A stretch of DNA of 64,000 bases from Xenophilus sp. E41 (lineage in GTDB: Bacteria; Pseudomonadota; Gammaproteobacteria; Burkholderiales; Burkholderiaceae_C), in the NCBI RefSeq assembly GCF_003671765.1, contig NZ_QPIB01000012.1, positions 387,339 to 451,338 of the forward strand, in the 5' to 3' direction. This document shows positions 11,669 to 62,302 of this stretch, piece after piece. The stretch's first letter is position 1, and every line of letters starts with the position of its first letter. The notes under the pieces were generated by a model, which worked only from the letters and a program-made list of their open reading frames with translations, was not told the DNA's origin and did not search any database. Position numbers and translations under genes: made by a program.

Positions 11669-14413
11669 TCAGCCCAGCGCGAACTTCGCCGCCCGCACGA
11701 TCGCCGCCGCGTCGACGCCGAAGAAGCGTCGCAGCTCGGCGCGCGTGTCGCTGCGCCCGAAGCCGTCGGTGCCCAGCGTGAGGTAGCGGCGGCCTTCGGG
11801 CACGAAGGCGCGCACGCTCTCGGGCACGGCGCGCACGTAGTCGGTGGCGGCGATGACGGGGCCCTCGCTGTGCGCGAGCTGCTTCGCCACGAAGGGCGTG
11901 CCGGCCTCGGGCTCGCCGGCCAGCGCGCGTGCCTCGCAGGCCCGGCCGTCGCGCGCGAGTTCGCTCCAGCTGGTGACGCTGAACACCGTGGCGTCGATGC
12001 CTTCCTCGGCCAGCTGCTGCGCGGCCTTGACCACCTCGGTGAGGATGGCGCCCGAGCCCATGAGCGTGACCTTTCTTGCAGACGAAATCGTGCCGGGGCG
12101 CGTGCCGGACGGACGCGACCAGCGATCGAAACGATAGCAACCGCGCAGCAGGTCGGCATGCACCTCGGTCGGCACGTCGGGCTGCGCGTAGTTCTCGTTC
12201 ATGAGCGTGATGTAGTGGAAGACATCCTGCTGCTCCACCAGCATCTCGCGCATGCCGGCATCCACGATGACGGCCATCTCGCCGGCGAAGGCCGGGTCCC
12301 AGGCCTTGCAGTTGGGAATGGTCGCGGCCACCAGGTGGCTGCTGCCGTCCTGGTGCTGCAGCCCTTCGCCGCCCAGCGTCGTGCGCCCCGAGGTGGCGCC
12401 CAGCAGGAAGCCGCGCGCACGCTGGTCGGCCGCGGCCCAGATCGCATCGCCCACGCGCTGGAAGCCGAACATCGAGTAGTAGATGTAGAAGGGCAGCATG
12501 GCCAGGCCGTGCACGCTGTAGCTGGTCGCGGCCGCCGTCCAGCTGGCGATGGCGCCGGCCTCGCTGATGCCCTCCTCGAGGATCTGCCCGTCCGTCGCCT
12601 CGCGGTAGCTCAGCACCGAGCCGATGTCCTCCGGCGCGTAGCGCTGGCCCACACTCGAATAGATGCCGACCTGCTTGAAGAGGTTGGCCATGCCGAAGGT
12701 GCGCGCCTCGTCGGCCACGATGGGCACGATGCGCGGGCCGAGCTCGCGGTCCTTGAGCAGTTGCCCCAGCAGGCGCACGAAGGCCATGGTGGTGCTCATC
12801 TCCTTGCCAGCGGCCTCGGTGGCGAACTTCGCGTAACTCGCGAGCGGCGGCACGGGCACCACGTCGCAAGCCGTCTCGCGCCGCGGCAGCGCGCCGCCGA
12901 GCGCGGCGCGGCGCTCGCGCAGGTAGCGCATCTCGGCGCTGTCCTCGGCCGGCTTGTAGAAGGAAAGCGAGGTGGCCTGCTCGTCGGTGAGCGGCAGGTT
13001 GAAGCGGTTGCGGAACTCGATGAGGTCGCTCTCGTCGAGCTTCTTCTGCGAGTGCGTGGTCATCTTGCCCTGGCCGGCCGTGCCCATGCCGTAGCCCTTC
13101 TTGGTGTGGGCAAGGATGACGACCGGCTGGCCGGTGTGCGCGGCCGCGGCGGCATACGCGGCGTGGATCTTCACCAGGTCATGCCCGCCGCGCTTGAGGC
13201 GATCGATCTGCTCGTCGGTCATGCCCTGCGCGAGGCGCGCGAGCTCGGGGTCCTGGCCGAAGAAGTTGTCGCGGTTGAAGCGCCCGTCCTTGGCCGCGAA
13301 GGTCTGCATCTGGCCGTCGACGGTGTGGGCGAAGGCGCGCGCCAGTGCGCCTTGCGTGTCTCGCGCGAAGAGGCCGTCCCAGTCGCTGCCCCACACCAGC
13401 TTGATGACCTTCCAGCCCGCGCCCGAGAAGAGCTGCTCCAGCTCGTCGATGATGCGGCCGTTGCCGCGCACGGGGCCGTCCAGTCGCTGCAGGTTGCAGT
13501 TGACCACCCACACCAGGTTGTCGAGCTTCTCGCGCGCGGCCAGCGTGAGGGCGCTCATCGATTCGGGCTCGTCCATCTCGCCGTCGCCGAAGACGCCCCA
13601 GACCTTGCGGCCTTCGCAGTTCAGAAGGTTGCGGTGCGTGAGGTAGCGCATGAAGCGCGCGTGGTAGATGCTGCTGATCGGGCCGATGCCCATCGAGCCG
13701 GTCGGGAACTGCCAGAAGTCCGGCATCAGGTAGGGGTGCGGGTAGCTCGACAGGCCTTGGGCACCCTGCGTCGATGCGGCCAGCTCCTGGCGGTAGTGCA
13801 GCAGGTCGTTCTCGCTCAGCCGGCCTTCGAGGAAGGCGCGGGCGTACACGCCCGGCGCGCTGTGCGGCTGGAAGAACACCAGGTCGCCGCCATGCGGCTC
13901 TGGCCCCCCACGCTCCCCCACTGCGTGTGGGTCGCTGCCCCCCCGAGGGGGGCGCTCGCCGCTTGGGGCGGCCCGGCGCGGCTCGGTCCTCGCGTGGAAG
14001 AAGTGGTTGAACCCCGTCTCGAACAGGTCCGCCGCGCTCGCGTAACTCGCGATGTGGCCGCCGAGTTCGCCGTACGCCTGGTTGGCCCGCACCACCATCG
14101 CCAGCGCGTTCCAGCGCATCAGCGAGGCGAGGCGCTCCTCGATCGCCAGGTCGCCGGGGAAGGCCGGCTGCTCGTCCACCGCGATCGTGTTGACGTACGG
14201 CGTCGCCAGCGCGGGCTGCCAGCCGATGCGCTCGCGCCGTGCGAGCCGGGCCAGTTCGTCGAGCATCTGCCGTGCGCGCGCCGGGCCCTGCGACTCCACC
14301 AGCGCCAGGAAGGCGTCGCGCCATTCGGCCGTCTCGGCCGGATCGGGGTCGTGGGCGTCGGTGGCGCCCTGGAGGAGGGCACGCATCTGGTCGGCGGACA
14401 TCGGGGCGTTCAT
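11669..14413 (-). CDS. Homodimeric pyruvate dehydrogenase-type E1 component (AceE/MdeB-like)
   Basis: 914 residues from the ATG at 14413. Thiamine-diphosphate E1 of the homodimeric AceE type: SMGIGPISSIYHARFMRYL, the ThDP motif GVFGDGEMDEPES, HTKKGYGMG, and the C-terminal transketolase-like half (QGR-type region GGEGLQHQDGSSHL). It decarboxylates a 2-keto acid and acetylates lipoyl-E2. No E2/E3 genes are adjacent; instead a divergent Lrp/AsnC regulator (14520) and a RidA-like gene flank it. This arrangement recalls mdeR-mdeA-mdeB of Pseudomonas putida, where MdeB is a 2-ketobutyrate dehydrogenase E1, so the substrate may be 2-ketobutyrate (inference). Odd feature: about 30 Arg/Pro/Gly-rich residues (about 144-171) are inserted between HFFHAR and GGDLVFF, encoded by a GC-rich repeat. 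The family is normally about 885-900 residues. Confidence 0.9.
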   Translation of the reverse strand: MNAPMSADQMRALLQGATDAHDPDPAETAEWRDAFLALVESQGPARARQMLDELARLARRERIGWQPALATPYVNTIAVDEQPAFPGDLAIEERLASLMRWNALAMVVRANQAYGELGGHIASYASAADLFETGFNHFFHARTEPRRAAPSGERPPRGGSDPHAVGERGGPEPHGGDLVFFQPHSAPGVYARAFLEGRLSENDLLHYRQELAASTQGAQGLSSYPHPYLMPDFWQFPTGSMGIGPISSIYHARFMRYLTHRNLLNCEGRKVWGVFGDGEMDEPESMSALTLAAREKLDNLVWVVNCNLQRLDGPVRGNGRIIDELEQLFSGAGWKVIKLVWGSDWDGLFARDTQGALARAFAHTVDGQMQTFAAKDGRFNRDNFFGQDPELARLAQGMTDEQIDRLKRGGHDLVKIHAAYAAAAAHTGQPVVILAHTKKGYGMGTAGQGKMTTHSQKKLDESDLIEFRNRFNLPLTDEQATSLSFYKPAEDSAEMRYLRERRAALGGALPRRETACDVVPVPPLASYAKFATEAAGKEMSTTMAFVRLLGQLLKDRELGPRIVPIVADEARTFGMANLFKQVGIYSSVGQRYAPEDIGSVLSYREATDGQILEEGISEAGAIASWTAAATSYSVHGLAMLPFYIYYSMFGFQRVGDAIWAAADQRARGFLLGATSGRTTLGGEGLQHQDGSSHLVAATIPNCKAWDPAFAGEMAVIVDAGMREMLVEQQDVFHYITLMNENYAQPDVPTEVHADLLRGCYRFDRWSRPSGTRPGTISSARKVTLMGSGAILTEVVKAAQQLAEEGIDATVFSVTSWSELARDGRACEARALAGEPEAGTPFVAKQLAHSEGPVIAATDYVRAVPESVRAFVPEGRRYLTLGTDGFGRSDTRAELRRFFGVDAAAIVRAAKFALG
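13900..13982. repeat. GC-rich palindromic repeat (family C) inserted in frame in the E1 gene
   Basis: The stretch holds CCCCCCACGCTCCCCCACTG, then CGTGTGGGTCGCTG, CCCCCCGAGGGGGG and CGCTCGCCGCTTGGGGCGGC. It is a string of nested dyads (CCCCC/GGGGG, CACGC/GCGTG) of the kind I know as an abundant intergenic repeat in Comamonadaceae. Here it lies inside a reading frame, adds no stop codon and no frameshift, and encodes the extra residues about 144-171 of the E1 protein. No second copy occurs in the window, so the repeat assignment rests on its structure and my recollection. Confidence 0.6.
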
Positions 14414-21009: not shown

Positions 21010-21077
21010 GTCACGGATGTGACGAATTCGGCCGCAACGCCCGTCTGGCGGGCGCTGGCGGCCGATTGCACTTTGCA
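21010..21077. repeat. Dispersed repeat family B, copy 2
   Basis: GTCACGGATGTGACGAATTC, GGCCGCA, a variable centre (ACGCCCGTCTGGCGGGCGCT, itself a small hairpin) and GGCGGCCGATTGCACTTTGC. The outer parts match 11041-11107 base for base over most of their length. It lies about 30 bases beyond the stop of the PhoX-like gene, between that gene and the molybdoenzyme gene. Confidence 0.75.
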
Positions 21078-42657: not shown

Positions 42658-43899
42658 ATGACCCTGTCCACCACCGCCCCCCACTTCGCGCTGCCCCAGG
42701 ACGCACCGCGCGCCGCCCGCACCGTGCTGGGCCTGCTGCAGCGCCTGGCGCACGGCTCGCTCTCGGTGCAATTGCCCGACGGCCAGGTGCAGCACTTCGG
42801 CGCCGCGCCCGGCGCGCGTCCGACGGCCTCGATGACGCTGCGCAACTGGACGGTGTGCGCAGCCGCGCTGAAGTCCGGCGACATCGGCTTCGCCGAGAGC
42901 TACATCGCCGGCGACTGGAGCACGCCCGACCTGCCGGCGCTGCTGGAGCTGTTCATCGCCAACCGGCGCGCGGTCGAGGACGTGGTCTACGGCAACTGGC
43001 TGGGCCGCCTGGCCTACCGCGTGCGCCACCTCCTGCAGCGCAACAGCAAGGCCGGCAGCGCCCGCAACATCCAGGCGCACTACGACCTGGGCAATGCCTT
43101 CTACCGCCTGTGGCTGGACGAGACGATGAACTACTCGTCGGCCCTCTTCGGCGACGACCGCGACCAGCCGATGGCCCAGGCCCAGCGCGCCAAGGTGTGG
43201 CGCGCGCTGCACCTGGCCGGCGTGCGGCCCGGCGACCGGGTGCTGGAGATCGGCTGCGGCTGGGGCGCCCTGGCCGAGATGGCGACGACGGAATTCGGCG
43301 CCCGCGTGACCGGCGTGACGCTCTCGCACGAGCAGCTGGCCTTCGCCCGCGACCGGCTCGCAGGCCACGGCGTGGACGCCGCGCGCGCCGACCTGCGGCT
43401 GCAGGACTACCGCGACATCGCCCTGCCGGCCGGCGACGCGGGCTACGACGCCATCTGCTCGATCGAGATGGTCGAGGCCGTCGGCCGCGAGTACTGGCCG
43501 ACCTACTTCGGCGCCGTCGCCCGCCTGCTCAAGCCGGGCGGTCGTGCGTGCATCCAGAGCATCGTCATCGACGACGCGCTGTGGCCGCGCTACATCCGCT
43601 CGACCGACTTCATCCAGCAGTACATCTTTCCCGGCGGCTGCCTGCCCTGCCCGTCGCAGCTCAAGGCCCAGGCCGAGGCGGCGGGGCTCGCGCTGGTGGA
43701 CGAATTCGCCTTCGGCGCCGACTACGCCGAGACGCTGCGCCGCTGGCGCGAACGCTTCCTGGCCGAGCGCCAGGCCGTGCTGCAACTGGGTTTCGACGAA
43801 AGGTTCATGCGCATATGGGAGTTCTACCTCGCGTACTGCGAAGCGGCCTTCATGCAGGCCAACATCGACGTGGTGCAGTACACGCTACAAAAACGATAG
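42658..43899 (+). CDS. Cyclopropane-fatty-acyl-phospholipid-synthase-like methyltransferase
   Basis: 413 residues. SAM-binding motif I VLEIGCGWGALAE at about residue 195, the CFA-synthase segments AHYDLGNAFYRLWLDETMNYSSA (about 140-162), TDFIQQYIFPGGCLP and WEFYLAYCEAAFM. It methylates acyl chains of phospholipids. In this operon context a UfaM-like role (methylating a diene on the way to furan fatty acid) is as likely as cyclopropanation. The last residues (TLQKR) and the TAG stop are supplied by the left end of a repeat-family-A copy starting at 43884, so the native C-terminus may have been altered by the insertion. Confidence 0.9.
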   Translation: MTLSTTAPHFALPQDAPRAARTVLGLLQRLAHGSLSVQLPDGQVQHFGAAPGARPTASMTLRNWTVCAAALKSGDIGFAESYIAGDWSTPDLPALLELFIANRRAVEDVVYGNWLGRLAYRVRHLLQRNSKAGSARNIQAHYDLGNAFYRLWLDETMNYSSALFGDDRDQPMAQAQRAKVWRALHLAGVRPGDRVLEIGCGWGALAEMATTEFGARVTGVTLSHEQLAFARDRLAGHGVDAARADLRLQDYRDIALPAGDAGYDAICSIEMVEAVGREYWPTYFGAVARLLKPGGRACIQSIVIDDALWPRYIRSTDFIQQYIFPGGCLPCPSQLKAQAEAAGLALVDEFAFGADYAETLRRWRERFLAERQAVLQLGFDERFMRIWEFYLAYCEAAFMQANIDVVQYTLQKR

Positions 43900-43945
43900 C
43901 TGCCTGCGCAGGATTGGCGGGCGCCGCAGCTCTTTTCGGCTTGAA
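43884..43945 (+). repeat. Repeat family A, copy spanning a gene junction
   Basis: Starts GCTACAAAAACGATAGCTGC, continues with CTGCGCAGGATTGGCGGGCG and ends TTTTCGGCTTGAA. It matches the family A pattern (dyad GCTAnC...GATAGC, then CTGCGCAGG-type centre with GGGCG, then GGCTTGAA). It provides the stop codon of the CFA-like gene and, in another frame, an open, hydrophobic stretch joined to the next gene. Confidence 0.8.
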
Positions 43946-45763: not shown

Positions 45764-46311
45764 ACTCCTCGCCCTCCCGCCGCCGCCTGCTCGGCCTGGC
45801 CCTGGCCGTCGGCACCGTTGCCGGGCTGGCCGGCTGTGCCAGCCCCACGCCGGCCGACTACGCCAACGAGAAGCCGGTGCTCTCGCTGCGCGACTACTTC
45901 AACGGCCGCGTCGAGGCCCACGGCATGTTCCAGGACCGCGGCGGCAAGGTCGTCAAGCGCTTCGACGTGGTGATGGACTGCCGCTGGAACGGCGACGAAG
46001 GCGTGCTCGACGAACGCTTCACCTACGGCGACGGTAGCACGCAGCGCCGCGTATGGACGCTGCGCGCACTGCCCGACGGCCGCTTCACCGGCACCGCGCC
46101 CGACGTCGTCGGCACGGCCCAGGGCCAGCAGCGCGGCAACGTCTTCCAGTGGAACTACACGCTGCGCCAGCCCGTGGGCGAGCGCACCTTCGACGTGCAG
46201 ATGGACGACTGGATGTACCTGTTGAACGAGCGCGTGATGCTCAACCGGGCACGCATGAGCAAGTTCGGCGTGGAGGTGGGGCAGGTCACGCTCACCTTCA
46301 TCAAACGCTGA
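45760..46311 (+). CDS. DUF3833 family lipoprotein
   Basis: 183 residues; ATG overlaps the permease stop (ATGA). Lipoprotein signal: basic SRRRLLG, hydrophobic run and lipobox AGLAGCAS (Cys near 26). The body FNGRVEAHGMFQDRGGKVVKRF, DERFTYGDG and DDWMYLLNERVMLNRARMSKFG is DUF3833. Unknown function; a standard partner in the same operon type, presumably in the periplasm or outer membrane, perhaps handling modified acyl chains. Confidence 0.87.
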   Translation: MNSSPSRRRLLGLALAVGTVAGLAGCASPTPADYANEKPVLSLRDYFNGRVEAHGMFQDRGGKVVKRFDVVMDCRWNGDEGVLDERFTYGDGSTQRRVWTLRALPDGRFTGTAPDVVGTAQGQQRGNVFQWNYTLRQPVGERTFDVQMDDWMYLLNERVMLNRARMSKFGVEVGQVTLTFIKR

Positions 46312-46323
46312 AGGCGAGCGCGC

Positions 46324-47133
46324 ATGCCCTGGTTCGCCCCCCTCAACCCGCCGCTGGCCGACTGGCGCGGCAAGACGGCCTGGATCGTCGGCGCCTCCTC
46401 CGGCATCGGCCTGGCGGTGGCGACGGCGCTCGCGGCGCGCGGCGCCCGCGTCGCCGTGTCGGCGCGGCACCGCGAGGCGCTCGACGCGCTGGCGGCGCGG
46501 CACCGCGTGGCCGAGGGCGAGCCGCCGCGCATCGTGGTGCTGCCGCTGGACGTGACCGACGCCGAGGCCGTGGGCGAAGCGCACACGGGCCTGTGCGATG
46601 CCTTCGGCGGTACGCCGGACTTCGTGCTGGTGTGTGCCGCCACCTACAGCCCGCTGCGCGCCGATGCCTTCGACCTGGCCACCATGCGCCGCCACCAGCA
46701 GGTCAACTACGTCGGCACGCTGAACGTGCTGGCCGCCGTGCTGCCGGCCCAGCTCGCACGTGGCAGCGGCCACGTGTCGCTGGTGGCCAGCGTGGCGGGC
46801 TTTCGCGGCCTGCCCAAGAGCCTGGCCTACGGCCCCACCAAGGCGGCGCTCACGAACTTGGCCGAGGTGCTGTACGCCGACCTGCATGCGCGCGGCATCG
46901 GCGTGAGCGTGGTGCAGCCGGGTTTCGTCGAGACGCCGCTGACGGCGCAGAACGACTTCGAGATGCCGGCGCTCGTCTCGCCCGCGCAGGCGGCCGACGC
47001 GATGCTGGCCGGCTGGGCGCGCGGCGCCTTCGAGATCGACTTCCCGCGCCGCTTCACGGCCTGGATGAAGCTGCTGCGCGTGCTGCCCTACCGCTGGTAC
47101 TTCGCGGCGGTGCATCGCTTCACGGGGCTTTGA
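46324..47133 (+). CDS. Short-chain dehydrogenase/reductase (operon member)
   Basis: 269 residues. NAD(P)-binding TGxxxGIG variant WIVGASSGIGLAVA at about residues 20-33, catalytic Ser in LVASVAGF, Tyr-x3-Lys in AYGPTKAALTN (about residues 175-185). It lies 12 bases after DUF3833 and is the last gene of the operon begun at 40423. Substrate unknown; a lipid or ketone intermediate is inferred. It is followed by a family-A repeat and a hairpin. Confidence 0.88.
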   Translation: MPWFAPLNPPLADWRGKTAWIVGASSGIGLAVATALAARGARVAVSARHREALDALAARHRVAEGEPPRIVVLPLDVTDAEAVGEAHTGLCDAFGGTPDFVLVCAATYSPLRADAFDLATMRRHQQVNYVGTLNVLAAVLPAQLARGSGHVSLVASVAGFRGLPKSLAYGPTKAALTNLAEVLYADLHARGIGVSVVQPGFVETPLTAQNDFEMPALVSPAQAADAMLAGWARGAFEIDFPRRFTAWMKLLRVLPYRWYFAAVHRFTGL

Positions 47134-47134
47134 C

Positions 47135-47199
47135 GCTATCGAATCGATAGCTGCCCGCGCAGACGGGTCGTGCGCTGCAGGCCGATTCGGCCCATGAAA
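47135..47199 (+). repeat. Repeat family A, intergenic copy
   Basis: Starts one base after the SDR stop: GCTATCGAATCGATAGCTGC, CCGCGCAGACGGGTCG, then GCAGGCCGATTCGGCCCATG and AAA. It is the best-preserved example of the pattern together with 60010 and 50983. The left dyad (GCTATCGA/TCGATAGC) is perfect. Confidence 0.85.
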
Positions 47200-47203
47200 T
47201 AAG

Positions 47204-47225
47204 AAAGGCGCCCGCAGGCGCCTTT
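47204..47225 (-). terminator. Hairpin terminator, convergent SDR / GST genes
   Basis: Perfect stem AAAGGCGCC (47204-47212) and GGCGCCTTT (47217-47225) with loop CGCA. On the minus strand it is followed by CTTATTTC, giving a usable T-tract about 20 bases after the GST stop; on the plus strand the T-tract is poor, so it mainly serves the GST gene. Confidence 0.75.
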
Positions 47226-47244
47226 GTGGCCGCGCAGCCGCGCT

Positions 47245-47859
47245 TCAGGCCGGCCGGGTGTCGGCGAAGCTCGGGCGCTGCAGCAGCTTCTCGTGCAGGC
47301 GGTCGAGGTTGGGGAACTGGTCGCGCCAGTCGATCTCGGGGAAGCGGAAGGCGATCCAGCCCAGCGCGCAGCCCACCGCGATGTCGGACAGGCTCAGGTG
47401 GATGCCGCTGCAGAAGGGCTTGTCGCCCAGGCCTTTGGCCATGGCGGCGATGCCCTGTTCGACCTTGGCACGCTGGCGGTCCATCCAGGCCTGGCTGCGC
47501 TCGCCATCGGCGCGCTTGCGCCAGGTGGCTTCCATGCGCCAGAGCACGCCGGCGTCCATCACGCCGTCGGCCAGCGCTTCCCAGGTCTTGACCTCGGCGC
47601 GTTCGCGGCCCGACGCGGGGATCAGCTTGCCGACCGGCGACAGGGTGTCGAGGTACTCGACGATCACGCGCGAGTCGAACATCGCCTCGCTGCCGTCCAT
47701 GATGAGGCAGGGCACCTTGCCCAGGGGGTTGGAGGTGGCGATGGTGGTCTCGTCGGCCCACACGTCCTCCTGCACGAACTGGTAGTCCAGCCGCTTCTCG
47801 GCCATGACCACGCGCACCTTGCGCACGTAGGGGCTGGCGGTCGATCCGATCAGTTTCAT
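47245..47859 (-). CDS. Glutathione S-transferase family protein
   Basis: 204 residues with GAGGGA about 10 bases upstream of the ATG. N-terminal thioredoxin-like domain (MKLIGSTASPYVRKVRVV, then PLGKVPCLIMD and the conserved glutathione-contacting DSRVIVEYLD) and an all-helical C-terminal domain with HLSLSDIAVGCALGW. This is close to the YibF/GST N-3 type found in proteobacteria. Soluble; substrate unknown. Divergent from purB. Confidence 0.9.
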   Translation of the reverse strand: MKLIGSTASPYVRKVRVVMAEKRLDYQFVQEDVWADETTIATSNPLGKVPCLIMDGSEAMFDSRVIVEYLDTLSPVGKLIPASGRERAEVKTWEALADGVMDAGVLWRMEATWRKRADGERSQAWMDRQRAKVEQGIAAMAKGLGDKPFCSGIHLSLSDIAVGCALGWIAFRFPEIDWRDQFPNLDRLHEKLLQRPSFADTRPA

Positions 47860-47979
47860 TGCGGGCGGGTCCCTCGGGATGTGGTTCTTGGCGCCCCGGG
47901 GCCGGGCCTCCAGCCCGCCCCAGGGTCAAGGCGAGCGGCCGGACGCCGGGTCGCCTTGGGGGTAGCGCTTTGATTCTAG

Positions 47980-49449
<1,470 letters not shown>

Positions 49450-49457
49450 TCCCTTTC

Positions 49458-49520
49458 TTTCAAGCGAAATCGGCCTGCAGCGCCCGTCCATCGGGCGCGA
49501 CGCGCTACCAAAACAAGAGC
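49458..49520 (-). repeat. Repeat family A, reverse-oriented copy
   Basis: TTTCAAGCGAAATCGGCCTG, CAGCGCCCGTCCATCGGGCG, then GCGCTACCAAAACAAGAGC. It is the reverse complement of the family pattern, lying between purB and yaeQ. The left-end dyad is degraded. Confidence 0.75.
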
Positions 49521-49528
49521 AATCACCC

Positions 49529-50089
49529 GTGGCGCTCAAATCCACCATCTTCAAGGCCAACGTGGCCGTGGCCGACATCGACCACGGCTACTACGCCGAC
49601 CATGCACTGACCCTGGCGCGCCACCCCAGCGAGACCGACGAGCGGATGATGATCCGGCTCGTGGCGCTGGCGCTCAACGCGCACCAGCTGCAGGACACCT
49701 GCGGCGGCGACGGCACGCTGGCCTTCGGCGCCGGGCTGTCGGACCCCGACGAGCCTGACGTGTGGCTGCGCGACTTCACCGGCCGCGCGCGCCTGTGGAT
49801 CGAGGTCGGCCAGCCCGAGGACAAGCCGGTCATCAAGGCCTGCGGCAAGGCCGACCAGGTCATCGTCTATGCCTTCGCCCATTCGGCCGACATCTGGTGG
49901 CGCGGTATCGAAACCAAGCTCACGCGGCCGCAGAACCTGCAGGTCTGGCGCATCCCGACGGCCGCCTCGCAGCAGCTCGCCACGCTGGCCCAGCGCAGCA
50001 TGCAGCTGCAGGCCACGGTGCAGGAAGGCGCGCTGATGCTGGGCGACGGCAGCACGACGGTCGACATCGAGCCGCTGCGCTGGAAGTAG
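49529..50089 (+). CDS. yaeQ: YaeQ family protein
   Basis: 186 residues from a GTG, matching the family length (about 180). Family marks are ALKSTIFKANVAVADIDHGY, LTLARHPSETDERMMIRL, FGAGLSDPDEPDVWLRD and WIEVGQPEDKPVIKACGKAD. YaeQ has a PD-(D/E)XK-nuclease-like fold (the Glu and Gln/Asp of IEVGQPE sit in the expected place) but no established biochemical role; E. coli YaeQ has been linked to RfaH-like suppression. It lies just behind a family-A repeat. Confidence 0.92.
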   Translation: MALKSTIFKANVAVADIDHGYYADHALTLARHPSETDERMMIRLVALALNAHQLQDTCGGDGTLAFGAGLSDPDEPDVWLRDFTGRARLWIEVGQPEDKPVIKACGKADQVIVYAFAHSADIWWRGIETKLTRPQNLQVWRIPTAASQQLATLAQRSMQLQATVQEGALMLGDGSTTVDIEPLRWK

Positions 50090-50105
50090 GCGCGGCGCCT
50101 GCCCC

Positions 50106-50411
50106 TCAGGCGCCCGGCATCGCCGCGCCGCACTGCCAGCAGCGCTCGAAGCCACCTTCGACGAATTCGCCGCACGCGCAGTGCCACTGGCGCTGCGGCG
50201 GATGCTGCAGCGCATGCAGCAGGCGGCGCGCCCGCTCGAGCTGCGCGTCGTCGTCGATCCAGATCTCGGGCAGGCACTGGTCCGGCGGCAACTGGCCGGC
50301 CACGGCGCACAGGAACTCGCGCTGCACCGAGGCGCCCACGCCCTCGCTGCGCAGCACGTCGGCCCACAGCGTCGCGATCGCGAGGTTGGGGGCTTGGGCG
50401 AGGCGGCGCAT
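50106..50411 (-). CDS. DUF2007-type protein with C-terminal zinc ribbon
   Basis: 101 residues. N-terminal part LAQAPNLAIATLWADVLRSE with GVGASVQREFLCAVAGQLP and LPEIWIDDDAQLERARRLL matches the DUF2007 (putative signal-transducing) domain. The C-terminus has CACGEFVEGGFERCWQCG, two CxC/CxxC pairs fit for a zinc ribbon. It starts 15 bases after the stop of the DUF3717/DUF1289 gene, so the two probably share a transcript. Function unknown. Confidence 0.75.
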   Translation of the reverse strand: MRRLAQAPNLAIATLWADVLRSEGVGASVQREFLCAVAGQLPPDQCLPEIWIDDDAQLERARRLLHALQHPPQRQWHCACGEFVEGGFERCWQCGAAMPGA

Positions 50412-50425
50412 GCGGCGGCGCTGGC

Positions 50426-50887
50426 TCAGGCGGGCGGCGCCTCGGGATCGGTGCCGGGGCTGGGGTCGGCCGGTGCGGCGTCGGCCTCGCGGGCCCGCTC
50501 GGCATAGCGGTTGAAGCGCCAGGCCGTGTCTTCCATCGTGATGCGGCGCCAGGTCTGGCGCTTTTCGGCGGGCGTCATGGCGGGCCAGTGTTGCACCTCG
50601 TCGAAGCTGCGTCCACAGCCCTTGCACTGGTCGTCGCCCTGGCTGGTGGAGCAGATGGCAATGCAGGGCGTGTCGGGCGTGGTCTCGTACCAGCCGAGCC
50701 AGGCGGCCCAAGCCTTGGCGGGGAAGCCGACCTCGTCGACCTCGTCCTCGCGGTAGAAGACCATGAGCGCATACACCTCGGCCAGCGCCCGCACTTCGGG
50801 CGCGAGCGTGACGCCGTCGGGCGAGGGCTTCTTCTCGCGCCAGAAGTTGATGGCGGCCTCGATGTCGGTGATGTGGATGGCGGCCAT
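50426..50887 (-). CDS. DUF3717-DUF1289 fusion protein
   Basis: 153 residues from the ATG at 50887; a TTG two codons earlier is an alternative. Residues 1-65 (IHITDIEAAINFWREKKPS and ALAEVYALMVFYRED) match DUF3717, and residues 75-120 (PCIAICSTSQGDDQCKGCGR, then SFDEVQHWPAMTPAEKRQTW) match DUF1289, a small Cys-rich domain with four Cys that could bind a metal. An acidic, Pro/Ala-rich tail follows. Neither domain has a known function. Confidence 0.78.
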   Translation of the reverse strand: MAAIHITDIEAAINFWREKKPSPDGVTLAPEVRALAEVYALMVFYREDEVDEVGFPAKAWAAWLGWYETTPDTPCIAICSTSQGDDQCKGCGRSFDEVQHWPAMTPAEKRQTWRRITMEDTAWRFNRYAERAREADAAPADPSPGTDPEAPPA

Positions 50888-50982
50888 GGGCAAGCGTGTC
50901 TCTCGGCGGGCCGGGGATGATAGTGCGCGGTCCGCGCGGTGGATGTCGGACCAATGCCCCGCGGATGCCCAAGGGAATGATT

Positions 50983-51045
50983 GCTATGAAAACAATAGCT
51001 CTCCGCCCAGGAAAGACGGGCGTTGCAGGCCGATTCCTTTTGAAA
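50983..51045 (+). repeat. Repeat family A, intergenic copy upstream of the riboswitch
   Basis: GCTATGAAAACAATAGCTCT, CCGCCCAGGAAAGACGGGCG, then TTGCAGGCCGATTCCTTTTG and AAA. It lies between the small DUF genes (minus) and the yybP-ykoY riboswitch (plus). It has no open frame that looks coding. Confidence 0.82.
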
Positions 51046-51099
51046 GGCCGCGTTTGCGAGGTTGTCAGGAGCGAAACGCGGATGCTTTAATCGCGGCCA

Positions 51100-51264
51100 C
51101 GAAGGGGAGTAGCTCCCGCCCGTTGTCCACGCAGCGGGTATCGCCAGGTCGTCAATACGAAGCAGATAACACTTCCGGCCTGTCGGGCGACGCGCATCGC
51201 ACAGCCGAGTTGCGCGCACGCCGAGCAAGACCTTCGATTTGAACCCCCAAGGTTCGGTCGAAGG
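51100..51264 (+). promoter_or_regulatory. yybP-ykoY (manganese) riboswitch upstream of terC
   Basis: The conserved marks of the yybP-ykoY aptamer are present: AAGGGGAGTAGC at 51102-51113 and GAGCAAGACCTTCG at 51223-51236, with P1 formed by CGAAGG (51100-51105) and CCTTCG (51231-51236). A second pairing competes: CCTTCGA (51231-51237) with TCGAAGG (51258-51264), enclosing GAACC/GGTTC (51241-51245/51251-51255). So P1 and the downstream hairpin exclude each other, a plausible switch. The hairpin has no T-tract, so control may be by Rho or translation rather than intrinsic termination. The element controls a TerC protein, as the family usually does. Confidence 0.85.
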
Positions 51265-51364
51265 CTTGATGACAGATCCCTCCGGAACACCCGGCGCTTC
51301 AGTCTCACGTCGTTCCGACCGTCACCGGCCGGAATGAATCGAAACGCACTGGAGTGTTCTGCAC

Positions 51365-52102
51365 ATGGAACTGTTTTCCGCGCAGTGGCTGTCGGCCCTG
51401 CTTGCCATCATCCTGATCGACCTCGTCCTCGCGGGCGACAACGCGATCGTCATCGCGCTGGCCGCACGCGGCCTGCCCTCGCACCTGCAGAAGAAGGCCA
51501 TCGTCTGGGGCACCGTCGGCGCGATCGTCGTGCGCTCGGTCATGACGATCGGCGTGGTGTGGCTGCTCAAGATCCCCGGCCTGATGCTGGTCGGCGGCCT
51601 GGGGCTGCTGTACATCGCCTGGAAGCTGCTGGCCGACACGCATTCGGACGAGGAGAGCCATGGCCCCGGCGCGACCACCTTCTGGGGCGCGATGAAGACC
51701 ATCGTGATCGCCGATGCGCTGATGGGCATCGACAACGTGCTGGGCGTGGCCGGTGCCGCGCACGGCGACTTCACGCTGGTGGTGCTGGGCCTGCTGATCA
51801 GCGTGCCGATCGTGGTCTTCGGCAGCACGCTGGTGCTCAAGCTGGTGCAGCGCTTCCCGGTCATCATCCAGCTGGGTGCCGCGGTGCTCGCCTTCACGGC
51901 CGGCAAGATGATCGTCAACGAGAAGCTGCTGGCCCCCTGGTTCGCGGGCGAGGCCCCGGCCAACCAGGCCGCCTACTGGGGCGTGTGCGTGCTGGCCATC
52001 GTCGGCGTGCTCACGGCCGGCTGGCTCACCAACCGCCGCAAGCCGGGCTCGGAGCGCATCGAGCAGGCGGAAGTCGCAGCGCGGGTGAACCCGATTGACT
52101 GA
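51365..52102 (+). CDS. TerC family membrane protein (probable manganese exporter, YjbE-type)
   Basis: 245 residues, about 7 membrane helices. TerC motif ILIDLVLAGDNAIVIALAAR (Asp19 and Asp25) and its repeat DALMGIDNVLGVAGAAHGD, the acidic pair thought to bind the metal. The ATG has GGAG 10 bases upstream. TerC proteins behind yybP-ykoY elements (Alx, MeeF/MeeY type) export Mn2+, and this one is most likely induced by high manganese through the riboswitch at 51100. It is probably co-transcribed with the next gene. Confidence 0.92.
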   Translation: MELFSAQWLSALLAIILIDLVLAGDNAIVIALAARGLPSHLQKKAIVWGTVGAIVVRSVMTIGVVWLLKIPGLMLVGGLGLLYIAWKLLADTHSDEESHGPGATTFWGAMKTIVIADALMGIDNVLGVAGAAHGDFTLVVLGLLISVPIVVFGSTLVLKLVQRFPVIIQLGAAVLAFTAGKMIVNEKLLAPWFAGEAPANQAAYWGVCVLAIVGVLTAGWLTNRRKPGSERIEQAEVAARVNPID

Positions 52103-52148
52103 TTCCGCATCCCACGTTTTCATCCACTGACGGAAGAAGGAGCGCCCC

Positions 52149-52613
52149 ATGGACAAGATCATTCTCTATGTCGACGACGCGGCCTATGCGCGTGAGCACC
52201 TGCAGCGGCTCGCGCCGGCGGCAGACAGCGCCGCGGCGCGGCACTGGGTCCTGGTGGCCTGCGCTCCGCGCATGACGCACCGCATCAGCAAGTGGGTGAG
52301 CCACAGCGCCCGCGAGAACTGGCGTGCCAAGTGGTTCGCGCGTGCGCAGGAGGCGCTGGTGCCGGCGCTCCAGCACGGTGGCGCGACGGTGACGGCGGTG
52401 CTCGCCAAGGGCCCGCTGACCGAACTCACGCAACGCCTCCAGCTGGAGCACGGCACGGCCCAGGTGGTCGACGCGCGCCGGCCCAAGGTGGGTGTCGACA
52501 TGGAACCGGTGGTGCACGGCAAGACGCCGGCCGGCCAGTCGGGCTGGGCCCTGCCGGGTGCCGTGATGGGCATGGGCGCACTGCTCGTGCTGGCGAACGA
52601 ACTGGCCGAATGA
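52149..52613 (+). CDS. Conserved hypothetical protein downstream of terC
   Basis: 154 residues, with GAAGGAG 6 bases before the ATG. The N-terminal KIILYVDDAAYAREHLQRL and the alternating strand/helix pattern resemble a universal-stress-protein or Rossmann-like fold, without the ATP-binding GxxGx9G motif. The C-terminal 25 residues (ALPGAVMGMGALLVLANEL) form one hydrophobic helix, perhaps a tail anchor. It follows terC by 46 bases and precedes a strong terminator, so it likely shares the manganese-controlled transcript. No function is known to me. Confidence 0.75.
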   Translation: MDKIILYVDDAAYAREHLQRLAPAADSAAARHWVLVACAPRMTHRISKWVSHSARENWRAKWFARAQEALVPALQHGGATVTAVLAKGPLTELTQRLQLEHGTAQVVDARRPKVGVDMEPVVHGKTPAGQSGWALPGAVMGMGALLVLANELAE

Positions 52614-52659
52614 GCCGACGAATCACCGCGTGCGCCACCGGCGCACGCTGCTGTCACAC

Positions 52660-52695
52660 ACGCCGCAGGGCCAGGCGCCCTGCGGCGTTTTTCTT
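52660..52695 (+). terminator. Strong Rho-independent terminator after the terC operon
   Basis: Stem ACGCCGCAGGG (52660-52670) with CCCTGCGGCGT (52678-52688), loop CCAGGCG, followed by TTTTTCTTT. It lies about 50 bases past the stop of the gene at 52149. Confidence 0.88.
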
Positions 52696-52742
52696 TGCGC
52701 ACGCTCGCCCCAGCGCTGCCGCCGCGGCGCTATGCTGGCGCC

Positions 52743-53096
52743 ATGCGACTGATCCTCAAATGGCTCCTGAGCGCGCTGGCCCTGCTGGCGGTGTCGTACC
52801 TCTACAGCGGCGTGCAGGTCACCAGCTTCACCCACGCGCTGATCGCGGCTGCGGTGATCGGGCTGCTCAACATGGTGGTGCGGCCGGTGCTGGTGGTGCT
52901 GACGCTGCCCGTCACCATCGTCACGCTGGGGCTGTTCCTCTTCGTCATCAACGCGCTGCTCTTCTGGGCCGCCTCGGGCCTCCTGAGCGGCTTTCACGTG
53001 AGCGGCTTCCTGGCGGCGCTGATCGGCTCGCTGCTGTACTCGCTGCTGGGCGTGGTGATCGAGTCCGCGCTGGGCGGCCTGTTCGCGCGCCGCTGA
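52743..53096 (+). CDS. Phage-holin-family-like four-helix membrane protein (PF04020 type)
   Basis: 117 residues, four hydrophobic helices (about 4-22, 28-48, 58-78, 85-110). The segment IGLLNMVVRPVLVVLTLPVTIVT and the following LGLFLFVINALLFW are typical of the small membrane proteins annotated as phage holin family / DUF360. Despite the name, most are chromosomal and of unknown role. It is preceded by the terC-operon terminator and ends 13 bases from the convergent NRPS gene. Confidence 0.88.
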   Translation: MRLILKWLLSALALLAVSYLYSGVQVTSFTHALIAAAVIGLLNMVVRPVLVVLTLPVTIVTLGLFLFVINALLFWAASGLLSGFHVSGFLAALIGSLLYSLLGVVIESALGGLFARR

Positions 53097-53109
53097 GGCG
53101 CCGCCACGA

Positions 53110-58383
<5,274 letters not shown>

Positions 58384-58517
58384 GAAGCGCACGGCGCATG
58401 AAATGCCCTCGATAGTAATTCCTAAGTTCTAGTTTCTTTCCGCGCTTGCCGGTTCACGGACGTGAGATATGACACGGACGGCCCGACCAAGTCGAAGGCG
58501 AGCGCCCACTGCGTCGT

Positions 58518-60050
58518 TCAAAGCGGCTTCTCGTTCATCTGCTCGCGCGCCTTCACGTCCACTTCGCGCGCCCGTGTGTCGATGATCGAGGCCTCGTAAT
58601 GGTCGATGCGCAGCGGGCCGCGGCCATCGGCATTGGCGCGCACCAGTTCCTGCGCTGCCTTGAGGCGGTCGCGCGCCGCGACGTAGTCGAGGATGGCGAC
58701 GTTGGCTTCGGCGTCGGCCCGGATGGCGCGCAGGGTGTCGCCCTGCTCGTTGTAGAGCGCCGACAGGGTGCGCCACGCGCCGTGGTCGCGCGGGTGGGTC
58801 GCCACCCAGTCGCGCAGGGGCGCCGTCATCGGGCCGGGGTTGCGGGTGGCGATGGCGGCCTGGGCGGCGAGCATCATCTCGGCCCGGTCCTTGGCCTTGG
58901 CGTTGAGCAGCGCGGCGGCCGCCGGAGCGTTGCGGGCCGCCAGTTCGATCTCCGCCGAGAGCAGCCGCGCCAGCCGCGACGCCGCCGCGTCGCCGCGGGT
59001 GCGCACCACCAGCCGTTCGGCCAGGGTGCGGGCGCTGCGCACGTCCCGCAGTTCCGACGCGCCCAGGGCCGCGGCATAGAGCGTGCCGGCCTGCTGGGCC
59101 GGCGAACTCTTGCCGAATTCGCTGCTGTCGGCCGCCTCGACCCACTGTCGCAACACGTCCACGCCCGGACGCGTGAGCACGCGGGCGCGGGCGCTGATCA
59201 TCGCGTGGTCCATCTCCAGCGGCAGCGGGGGCACGGCCTCGGCGCGGAACTGGAAGCGCGCCTGCATCTCGGTGATGCGCTCGCTGGTCAGCGGGTGGCT
59301 GCGCAGGTAGGGGTAGGCGCCGTTGTCGTTCAGGCGCGAGGCGTACTGCAGCCGCTCGAACATGCTCGCGGCGCCGCGTGGCGAGAAGCCGGCCTGCGTC
59401 ATGACGCCGTAGCCGATGCGGTCGGCCTCGCGCTCCATGTCGCGCGAGAAGTCGAGCTGCTTCTGCTGCGCGAAGGCCGAGCCGCCGGTCATCATGGCGG
59501 CACCCAGGTCGCCGCCGCTGCGGCTCTTGGAGGCGGCCACCGCGCCGAGGATCATCGCCGCGATGAGCCAGGGCGCCTGGCGGCTCTGCTGGGTCAGCAT
59601 GCGCGAGATGTGCCGCTGCGTGACGTGCGACAGCTCGTGGCCGAGCACGGCGGCCAGCTCGTCGCGGCTGCCCACGACGGCGATCAGCCCCATGTTCAGG
59701 CCCAGGTAGCCGCCGGGCAGCGCGAAGGCGTTGATTGTGCGGTCGTGGCCGAGCATCACGGTCCAGGCGTAGCGCTCGTCGAGCTCGGGCGTGAGCTCGC
59801 CGCGGGTGCGCGCCGCGGCCATCAGGCGCTGCCAGATCTCCTGCACGTAGTCGACCATCACCGGGTCGTCGACATAGTCCGGGTCGCGGTACAGCTCGCG
59901 GGCGATGCGGTCACCGAGCTGGCGCTCGGCGGTGGCGGTCATCTCGGCGCCGTCGCTCATGCCCGGCAGCACCTGGGCACGTGCCGCGGGCATGGCCAGC
60001 AGCTGCGACGCTATCAAAGCAATAGCTGTCGCCGCCCGCCAGACGGGCAT
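58518..60050 (-). CDS. BepA-like M48 metallopeptidase with TPR domain, repeat-derived signal peptide
   Basis: 510 residues from the ATG at 60050. Signal peptide [20 protein letters not shown] ending ARA-Q; its first 15 residues and the start codon are encoded inside repeat family A (60010-60073). Peptidase M48 domain with zinc motif [12 protein letters not shown] near residue 135, the third ligand region [13 protein letters not shown], and a C-terminal half of helical TPR-like repeats (about 300-510), the architecture of BepA/YfgC. BepA is a periplasmic protease/chaperone of outer-membrane assembly (LptD). Divergent from moaC. Confidence 0.9.
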
Positions 60051-60073
60051 TGCAGGCCGATTCGGCTTGAAAA
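60010..60073. repeat. Repeat family A, copy encoding the M48 signal peptide
   Basis: GCTATCAAAGCAATAGCTGT, CGCCGCCCGCCAGACGGGCA, then TTGCAGGCCGATTCGGCTTG and AAAA. A near-consensus copy. Read on the minus strand in the protease frame it gives [20 protein letters not shown], containing the start codon and the hydrophobic core of the signal peptide. Confidence 0.88.
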
Positions 60074-60168
60074 CTCGAGAAAGGGAGAAGGGCGGGCAGT
60101 GGGTCAAGCAGCGGTCCTTGTCGAACGTCCGGGCCCGTATGATGCGCTCCCGCCCGCTTCGTTCACCC

Positions 60169-60657
60169 ATGCCGACTTCTGCGCTCACCCACTTCGATGC
60201 CCAGGGCCAGGCCCACATGGTGGATGTGGCCGCCAAGCCGGCCACCCACCGCGTGGCCGTCGCCACCGGCGCCATCGAGATGCGCGCCGAGACATTGGCG
60301 CTGATCGAGTCCGGCGGCGCGAAGAAGGGCGACGTGCTGGGCGTGGCGCGCATCGCCGGCATCCAGGCCGCCAAGAAGACCAGCGACCTCATCCCGCTGT
60401 GCCACCCGCTGGCCCTGACCCGCGTGGCCGTGGCCTTCGAGACCGCCGCCGCGCCGGTGCCGCAGGTGCGCTGCACCGCCACCGTCGAGACCGTCGGCCC
60501 CACCGGCGTCGAGATGGAGGCGTTGACCGCGGTGCAGGTGGCCCTGCTCACCGTCTACGACATGTGCAAGGCGGCCGACCGCGGCATGACGATCACCGGC
60601 GTGCACGTGGTGGAGAAGCACGGCGGCAAGTCGGGCAGCTGGGTGGCCGGCGCCTGA
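60169..60657 (+). CDS. moaC: Cyclic pyranopterin monophosphate synthase
   Basis: 162 residues, typical MoaC length. Motifs: [19 protein letters not shown], the active-site region [14 protein letters not shown] (about residue 72), [20 protein letters not shown] and [27 protein letters not shown] with the catalytic Asp and Lys. It forms cPMP in molybdenum-cofactor synthesis, needed by the PaoABC and FdhF/YdeP-type enzymes of this window. A TATGAT at 60138-60143 may be its -10 box. Confidence 0.96.
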
Positions 60658-60673
60658 GCGCTGGCCGGCTTCT

Positions 60674-62302
60674 TCAGTTCGCCGGCAGGCTGCCCACCCA
60701 ACGCAGGTAGTCCTCCGGATAGGCGGCGCGAAAGCGCGCCAGCTGGGCCTGCACCTCGTCCTCGTCGCCCAGCAGCGAGGCCGCCTGGATGCGCTTGACC
60801 ACCACGCGGGGCTCCGGCGAGAAGTGCAGCATCTCGCCCGCCAAGCCGTACATGGCCGCCGCGTTGCCGCGCGTGACCGGCGTCAGGGTCAATTCGGCAA
60901 ATTTCACGGCATCGCCGAAGAACCACGAGCGGCCGCGCAAGCGGTCGAGCGTGTGCTCGCGCCAGGCGGGCAGACGCTCGGCGCGGGGCAGGTAGATCTG
61001 GCTCACACGGGTGTAGTCCCAGGCGGCCGCTGCCAACAATGCTATCGAAATCGTAGCTGCCAGCGCAGCCAGGACGGGCGCAAACGCCCGGTTTGACCCG
61101 GAATCGGCGGCCGGACGGCCGGGCCAGAGGAAGCCCAGGCAGAGGCCGAACACCAGCTGGAAGGGCGCGTACCAGAGCGGGTACTCGAGCAGGCTGTGCA
61201 GCACGATCACGCCCAGCAGGCCCCACACCATGATCCGCGCCGGATCGCGTTCGGCCCAGGGCCGCGCCCGCAGCACCATCCAGGCGAAGCCGCCGCAGAT
61301 CGCCACGGCGGCAGGGATCCCCAGCGTCACCGCCAGGTGCAGCGGGAGGTTGTGCGCGTTGTCCAGGATTTCGACAAAGCGCTCGCCGGCATACAGGTGG
61401 CTGTAGTGCGCGTAGCTCAGCTCCCCCCAGCCCCAACCGCGCCAGGGGTGCTGCGCGATCAACTCGAGCACGTTCTGCCAGAGCACGAGACGGCCGTGGC
61501 CCGGCGGGGCGCCCTCGCGCAGGCGCGAGATCATGCCTTCGACGCTGCCGCTGGCGCTGGCGAGGCGGGGGAGGAGCCAGGCGGCCGCAGCGTACAGCGG
61601 GAGCAGCGCAAGTAAGCGCCATGGACCCGCCAGCCGCGGCCCACCCTGCTCCGCCGTTCGCCGCTGTCTTGCGCCCAGCCAAGCCGCGGCGCCGACTATG
61701 CAGACCAATTGAAGCAGGCCGGTGCGCGAAGTCGACGCGGCCAGGCCGAGCACCAGCCAGGCGGCAGCCGCTGACCACGGCAGCCGCGCGCCGCCCGATG
61801 CACGGGCCTGCAGCCAGAGCACCGCCACCAGTCCCATCCCGCACAGGGAGGCGAACTGGTTGCGCTGCCGAAGGTTGCCATAGGCCATGCCCAAGGGCTC
61901 CATGGGAACCGCGCCCCACGGCTTCAACCAAGCCGCATGCCCGAAGTACTGTGCCATGCCGATCAGGACGCTCAGGCATGCCGCCCATGCGACGCCGCGG
62001 GCGATGGCGAGCGACCGACCGGCAGCCTGCGCATCGTCCGGACCGCTGGAACGGCCGGCGAGCAACCCGCAGCCGACCACGAGCAGCGCCCCCGCGACGC
62101 CCGCCCCGCTCTGCCCTGTGCAGGCGAGGGCAGCCAGCAGGACGGCACAGGCGACCCGCAAGCCAGCCGCACGCGTACCCGCTCGCCGATCGACTGTCGC
62201 CCAGGCGAGCAGCACGGAGCAGCCCGCGCCCCAGAGCGCCTGCCATGCACTGCCCAACGGTCCTGCCGTCAGCGGGAACAGGAAGGGCGCCGCTACCAGC
62301 AC
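60674..62302 (-). CDS. PglL/TfpO-type O-oligosaccharyltransferase (Wzy/O-antigen ligase superfamily)
   Basis: About 542 residues from a GTG at 62302; no ATG precedes in frame. About 11-12 membrane helices. PglL/PilO marks: the NLRQRNQFASL loop near residue 142, SASTSRTGLLQ-like LAASTSRTG, the large periplasmic loop with GHGRLVLWQNVLELI and the DNAHNLPLHLAV motif, HSLLEYPLWYAPFQLV (about 372-387), then a C-terminal Wzy_C_2 domain. Such enzymes transfer undecaprenyl-linked glycan to Ser/Thr of pilins and other exported proteins. It is divergent from a pilin cluster starting at 62580, fitting pilin glycosylation. The helix near residues 402-426 (SNRAFAPVLAALAATISIAL) is encoded by a family-A repeat. 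Confidence 0.85.
   Translation of the reverse strand: MLVAAPFLFPLTAGPLGSAWQALWGAGCSVLLAWATVDRRAGTRAAGLRVACAVLLAALACTGQSGAGVAGALLVVGCGLLAGRSSGPDDAQAAGRSLAIARGVAWAACLSVLIGMAQYFGHAAWLKPWGAVPMEPLGMAYGNLRQRNQFASLCGMGLVAVLWLQARASGGARLPWSAAAAWLVLGLAASTSRTGLLQLVCIVGAAAWLGARQRRTAEQGGPRLAGPWRLLALLPLYAAAAWLLPRLASASGSVEGMISRLREGAPPGHGRLVLWQNVLELIAQHPWRGWGWGELSYAHYSHLYAGERFVEILDNAHNLPLHLAVTLGIPAAVAICGGFAWMVLRARPWAERDPARIMVWGLLGVIVLHSLLEYPLWYAPFQLVFGLCLGFLWPGRPAADSGSNRAFAPVLAALAATISIALLAAAAWDYTRVSQIYLPRAERLPAWREHTLDRLRGRSWFFGDAVKFAELTLTPVTRGNAAAMYGLAGEMLHFSPEPRVVVKRIQAASLLGDEDEVQAQLARFRAAYPEDYLRWVGSLPAN
61041..61098. repeat. Repeat family A, copy inside the PglL-like gene
   Basis: GCTATCGAAATCGTAGCTGC, CAGCGCAGCCAGGACGGGCG, then CAAACGCCCGGTTTGACC. 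It keeps the left dyad and centre, while the right end is diverged. On the minus strand it is translated in the same phase as the copy at 60010, giving NRAFAPVLAALAATISIA against [18 protein letters not shown]. Confidence 0.78.

Follow-up and report, generated by a model that had tools for sequence, protein, structure and literature searches.

A dispersed 63-bp repeat as coding sequence for the predicted signal-peptide core of BepA-like M48 proteases in 13 genera

Results

A protease gene read through a dispersed repeat

The window analysed here is a stretch of 64,000 nucleotides from Xenophilus sp. E41 (contig NZ_QPIB01000012.1, positions 387,339 to 451,338), which carries a gene for a predicted periplasmic protease of the M48 family (Table 1). 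The product matches Pfam Peptidase_M48 with 115 bits and, as its best NCBIfam match, M48_BAM_BepA (residues 11-474 aligned); since the latter score of 224 bits falls below the equivalog cut-off of 570 bits, we call the protein BepA-like and not BepA. The gene diverges from moaC. On its other side it adjoins a minus-strand ORF of 1760 amino acids at 53110-58392, which looks by sequence alone like a non-ribosomal peptide synthetase, while the minus-strand ORF at 60674-62302 presumably encodes a PglL/O-antigen-ligase-like protein.

Table 1. Features of the M48 protease locus (positions in the window)
Feature	Position	Strand	Evidence or remark
BepA-like periplasmic M48 protease gene	58518-60107 with the preferred TTG start; 58518-60050 with the in-repeat ATG	-	Pfam, NCBIfam, orthologues
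Remainder of the predicted signal peptide, 11 residues after the repeat	59976-60008	-	Predicted cleavage before Q (59975-59973)
Dispersed repeat copy	60010-60072	-	About 21 in-frame codons of the predicted signal peptide; 59.3 bits, E = 3.7e-17, model R1
ATG proposed as start in the initial annotation	60048-60050	-	ACG, ACG, GCG and CTG in the four nearest orthologues
TTG, preferred start	60105-60107	-	Conserved in 5/5 repeat-bearing congeners; anti-SD duplex -5.1 kcal/mol
AAGGA, Shine-Dalgarno-like	60115-60119	-	7 nt upstream of the TTG; conserved in the five
moaC, divergent neighbour	60169-60657	+	Pfam MoaC; start overlaps the open frame upstream of the M48 gene
Second, diverged repeat copy	61041-61100	-	Inside ORF 60674-62302; 28.2 bits, E = 2e-7

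The 5' end of the protease frame runs through a repeat unit that reads GCTAT..TTGAAA on the plus strand. The initial annotation had placed a dispersed repeat at 60010-60073, and the element proved real, with a length of 63 bp; it was scored by profile search with a model (R1) of 29 other copies of the same genome, gathered with this copy as query but with the copy itself left out of the model. Mapping over the whole genome found at least 150 copies, and among the matches listed all had E values of 4.3e-10 or lower. A 23-base core pattern, allowing up to three mismatches, matched three times in the window and never in 100 shuffles. The edges of the unit are sharp in 100 other copies, with a conserved block extending from GCTAT to GAAA that is often preceded by a T. 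The copies at 47135 and 50983 named in the initial annotation are both matched by the model. The family had been described there as otherwise intergenic, which fits most copies; it does not hold for 7 of 100 others, which a codon score places in frame in genes, nor for the copy at 61041, which lies within an ORF. Further matches of the model in the window are found at 43884-43945, 49458-49520 and 12077-12138, with a partial one at 21037-21072.

No Rfam family matched positions 46000-61500 of the window up to an E value of 1. RNAalifold run on 29 copies gave five pairs, none of them with a compensatory change, and the palindromic segments of the repeat are visible in the consensus only. Target-site duplications of 5-9 nt were absent from 100 copies, and shorter ones showed no excess, 3-nt duplications occurring in 3/100 copies (about 2 expected) and 4-nt duplications in 1/100 (about 0.5 expected); the duplication by which a MITE would be recognised was not found in these copies.

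On the minus strand the M48 frame stays open through the repeat, as the initial annotation had read it, and the ATG that it noted at 60050-60048 is present. The repeat-encoded peptide, of the pattern FKxxRPxxxxxRALxAxxLIA, has a basic part and after it a hydrophobic one, and is continued by the remainder of the leader up to a cleavage point predicted from the -3/-1 rule for signal-peptide cleavage. The features of a Sec signal peptide, namely a basic n-region, a hydrophobic core and an AxA motif (AHA in G012), are present by sequence in all five repeat-bearing genomes of the genus. The earlier view that the repeat encodes the hydrophobic part of the leader is supported: the core of the predicted M48 signal peptide comes from a dispersed repeat, and the stretch presumably functions in export.

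Distribution and register of the repeat in M48 leaders

At an E value of 1e-6 the repeat occurs in 101 of 399 genomes of the family, representing 44 of 141 genera; this survey scored no more than 13 copies in each genome, and its copy numbers are lower bounds. When genera beyond the own one were first scanned, three loci matched weakly at their M48 signal peptides. A second profile was built on 30 dispersed copies drawn from four further genera, and it placed the repeat within the M48 signal peptide in 28 of 59 parsed orthologue loci, belonging to 13 genera and all in one phase; 60 loci were given for this count (L065-L067 not among them), in one orientation, and the single unparsed one, L257, scored 23.6 when both orientations were considered. 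Scoring in both orientations, for which 63 loci were given and L065, L067 and L270 were unparsed, covered 27 of the 28 and found the same orientation in all. These proportions reflect the sampling, as 30 genomes were picked for their many repeat matches and their 29 parsed loci supply 20 of the 28 positives, the others being 5 of 14 in the genus itself and 3 of 16 loci of other genera not so chosen (the best 16 of 22 matched genomes outside the genus).

The distance from the end of the repeat to A|Q, scanned over 8-12 residues, is exactly 11 residues in 22 of the 28 loci, 10 in two and 9 in one; for the last three, either no cleavage site was found (L258, L260) or a wrong one was taken (L267). 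Two loci below the score limit, L045 and L047, have the best match in the locus, taken in the orientation of the 28, at the same register. L057 (score 29.0) carries the repeat in its signal peptide with a longer spacer; it fails the distance filter and stands outside the 28. The initial annotation had supposed that the repeat replaced an ancestral signal peptide in this lineage, a view that finds no support in a repeat held within the same signal peptide in so many genera and mostly at one register. Together, the 13 genera and the shared register imply either that the repeat predates this species group or that several gains took place at a single position.

Hydrophobic bias of the encoded core

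Over the last eight complete repeat codons the hydropathy of M48 copies ranges from 2.0 to 3.3, compared to medians of 0.79 for 100 dispersed copies of this genome and 0.74 for 30 of other genera (p = 2.2e-4 and 1.7e-8, values that are too small because related rows and species are not independent). Charged residues are absent from these codons in all 28 M48 copies but present in 80/100 dispersed copies of this genome and 22/30 of other genera. Stops in frame follow the same trend, with none in the 28 M48 copies versus 11/100 and 8/30 in the two dispersed sets. Variable sites inside the repeat are almost evenly distributed over the codon positions (7, 8, 10), and in the five repeat-bearing congeners this count gave no clear signature of purifying selection beyond hydropathy. 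The M48 copies look selected for a hydrophobic core, and the element looks like an old, domesticated coding repeat and not like a replacement private to this genome.

Other copies inside genes

A codon score trained on 24 long ORFs of the window was applied to 100 other copies, seven of which lie within genes whose reading frame continues through the repeat; in four cases this is the frame that the M48 gene uses. We take these genes, from their translations, to be HemD, NadD-like, a small membrane protein, UvrD-like, DapE, an oxidoreductase and MutL. The M48 copy itself fails the test, its upstream side scoring low (-0.02). In DapE (L161, L182-L195) an in-frame insert of about 22 codons is found in five congeners and absent in eight, and the gene of G005 contains a shortened, possibly decayed repeat piece. 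In HemD (L105, L196-L209) the repeat piece measures 21 codons in five congeners, and the other nine have about 10-13 codons. The encoded peptide reads AAIDLIA in HemD and AAIEKIA in DapE; the M48 signal peptide and the two membrane ORFs have no charged residue there. The diverged copy at 61041 occupies the same place in G002 and G012, making three species in all (the PglL-like ORF of G008 was left out of the codon-position count).

Descent of the M48 copies

Among M48 copies of other genera, 12/23 carry GAAGC in place of ATAGC, versus 0/30 dispersed copies there (p = 5e-6). This variant suggests shared descent of the M48 copies, although it alters a residue, from Ile to Ser, and could be convergent. 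When presence of the repeat was mapped on an M48 tree, built by a quick method with SH-aLRT only and with several long branches flagged, seven changes were needed compared to a mean of 19.9 for shuffled labels, and none of 500 shuffles was as low.

The genus itself is divided. Of its 14 genomes, the five with the repeat in the M48 gene have 146-150 matches among the 150 scored, while the nine others have 0-14 matches at an E value of 0.01 and an M48 leader without the DNA signature of the repeat. Residual similarity at the right register is weak in these nine, 0.7% to 15% of positions scoring as high (best of five registers), and they either lost the signature or never had it. The copy in the M48 gene fits the repeat dialect of its own genome in four of the five (log-odds +4 to +10; -1.5 in G008), in contrast to the M48 copies of other genera, whose log-odds range from -5 to -35. 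The fit in four of five agrees with a later insertion or conversion. Because the nine congeners lack the signature, the copy in the five may have been refreshed or inserted a second time, and the data are compatible both with one old insertion followed by conversion and with a second insertion.

An independent gain, in which the five acquired their copy separately at the same spot as the other genera and replaced an ancestral core, is a lesser possibility that we nevertheless keep in view. Besides the missing signature and near absence of the family in the nine congeners and the dialect match in four of the five, it would account for the restriction of the DapE insert and the HemD piece to the same five genomes, apart from the possibly decayed DapE piece of G005. 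However, the 11-residue register is that of most other genera, and G005 has LIASQ across the junction without a repeat signature; since this motif is shared across the junction, the G005 core may be homologous. We regard as rather doubtful the related idea that recurrent gene conversion or re-insertion keeps the leader repeat-like, so that it tracks the dialect of each genome's selfish repeat and loses its repeat character where the family dies out.

Translation start of the M48 gene

In the initial annotation the repeat provided the start codon, ATG 60050, as well as the signal peptide, a leader of 25 residues. A start at this in-frame ATG would produce a short and well-formed signal peptide. 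Yet it is missing from all four nearest orthologues, which are 94-96% identical and all carry the repeat (Table 1), and since these keep the repeat without the ATG they must start elsewhere. No purine-rich site precedes it, its anti-SD duplex, tested one codon off, reaches -1.3 kcal/mol, and the nine congeners without repeat signature place an ATG well upstream of the hydrophobic core. Both the orthologue codons and the weak duplex disfavour a start at this position, which we consider improbable. In G328 and G032, the sole ATG, GTG or TTG near the signal peptide sits inside the repeat, at a codon other than 60050, and because it is the only candidate there an in-repeat start may hold in those two genomes.

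The nearest upstream ATG, GTG or TTG common to the five repeat-bearing congeners is the TTG at 60107, and G005, the next relative and one without repeat signature, has an ATG one codon from this position. Over the 12 codons between TTG and repeat, variable sites are evenly distributed among codon positions (4, 6, 4), so that translation of this segment is only putative. Further upstream, ATG 60170 lies 32 codons before the repeat, is conserved in all five and forms a stronger duplex than the TTG (-8.1 versus -5.1 kcal/mol); as it mirrors, on the other strand, the CATG with which moaC itself begins, it was set aside as a secondary candidate. In other genera, 14 of the 23 repeat-bearing loci have a GTG two codons upstream of the repeat, with a ribosome-site duplex of -5.2 to -9.5 kcal/mol in the 9 of those 14 that were tested. 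From these candidates we infer that translation starts outside the repeat in most genomes, at the GTG in many and at TTG 60107 here; the repeat probably does not supply the start codon in Xenophilus sp. E41.

Origin of the family and chance similarity

The M48 leader is a repeat site common to many genera, and it could be imagined as the source that seeded the dispersed copies. This is very unlikely: the M48 copies, with GAAGC and an uncharged core, are the unusual members and not the centre of the family, and the dispersed unit has sharp ends. Signal peptides are low in complexity and resemble each other, but a chance similarity of hydrophobic leader DNA to a GC-rich repeat is hardly credible and is refuted for the high-scoring copies by the background, in which the 99.99th percentile of 946,792 scores is -17 and some of the few scores exceeding 40 (maximum 51.3) belong to loci where other copies were already known (L031-L033, L052), whereas the copy studied here scores 78 and the 28 loci 19.8-78, the weakest, below about 25, being arguable.

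Discussion

What we observed is the repeat itself, the frame and register in which it is read, the range of genera that carry it and the hydrophobic bias; on this basis we propose the following history. In the distant past, a copy of a dispersed, family-wide repeat (Comamonadaceae, judging by named relatives) would have landed close to the 5' end of the BepA-like M48 gene. Read on one strand and in one frame, it would have contributed a basic stretch and then a hydrophobic segment, which may have been taken over as the n- and h-region of a Sec signal peptide. Selection would then have excluded charged and stop codons from the M48 copy, with little change in its register relative to the cleavage site. 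The translation start would lie outside the repeat in most genomes, often at a GTG two codons upstream and here at TTG 60107. We give this history as a whole, an old insertion domesticated as a signal peptide with a start mostly outside it, a probability of roughly three in four; its export step, its start codon and a single old insertion as opposed to several are what we infer.

Parallels for parts of this history are known, both for in-frame repeats and for a repeat within one predicted signal peptide of Yersinia. Some protein-coding genes contain Rickettsia palindromic elements (RPE; Ogata et al. 2000, 2002, after the accessible part of the review PMC10969869), a case in which a short dispersed element sits in frame inside unrelated conserved genes and adds a recurrent peptide. 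Likewise, the present repeat has many dispersed copies in one genome (at least 150) and stands in frame in unrelated conserved genes, DapE and HemD, while being absent from orthologues. In contrast to RPE, a hairpin kept by compensating changes was not seen by RNAalifold in 29 copies, the unit measures 63 bp against about 150 bp (the likeness drawn here being one of kind), and a copy has been kept at a single site across 13 genera, now as a putative targeting signal. We suggest that the 63-bp repeat works like an RPE-type in-frame coding repeat that turned into part of a signal peptide.

The enterobacterial RU-2/YAPL repeat, according to the accessible text on it (Delihas 2007; PMC2759123, PMC2229807), was proposed to contribute to the signal peptide predicted for the Yersinia protein YPO1552, as the 63-bp repeat does for the protease here. 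There the host protein is putatively exported and belongs to Y. pestis and Y. pseudotuberculosis, whereas the present host is a conserved BepA-like protease followed through 13 genera, in which most copies share one register and a bias in hydropathy was measured. The beta-proteobacterial repeat element BRE of Bordetella and Comamonadaceae, as described in the accessible part of Hot et al. 2011 (PMC3110155), is also dispersed and usually intergenic with some copies in coding sequence; it is about 90 bp long, partly tandem and present in at most 29 copies per genome, and was compared with the 63-bp repeat by description only. Searches of the accessible literature, with most subscription papers outside their scope, brought up no description of this repeat from Comamonadaceae and none of a BepA signal peptide encoded by a repeat.

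Short length, palindromic segments and many copies also recall REP/REPIN elements with their Y1 (RAYT) transposases. One Y1_Tnp gene each is found in 13 of the 14 congeners. A repeat copy lies near Y1_Tnp in four of the six loci fetched, possibly through one ancestral adjacency; in L280, L282, L283 and L284, from four of the five repeat-rich congeners, it stands a few hundred bases from the Y1-type (RAYT-like) gene. Unlike in REP/REPIN systems, the gene is also present in 8/9 congeners nearly devoid of the repeat, and we treat a link between repeat and Y1 transposase as a lead only.

Gene callers should be wary of the in-repeat ATG, an attractive start that is probably wrong. In the literature compared here, as far as accessible (PMC10969869, PMC2759123, PMC2229807, PMC3110155), in-frame repeats in bacterial genes are described mostly as tolerated inserts. 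At one orthologous site across many genera, an in-frame repeat here has a likely job, and its hydropathy bias points to selection. The M48 leaders offer a natural series in which to ask by what steps a repeat is incorporated into a protein, and whether dispersed copies keep rewriting the M48 leader.
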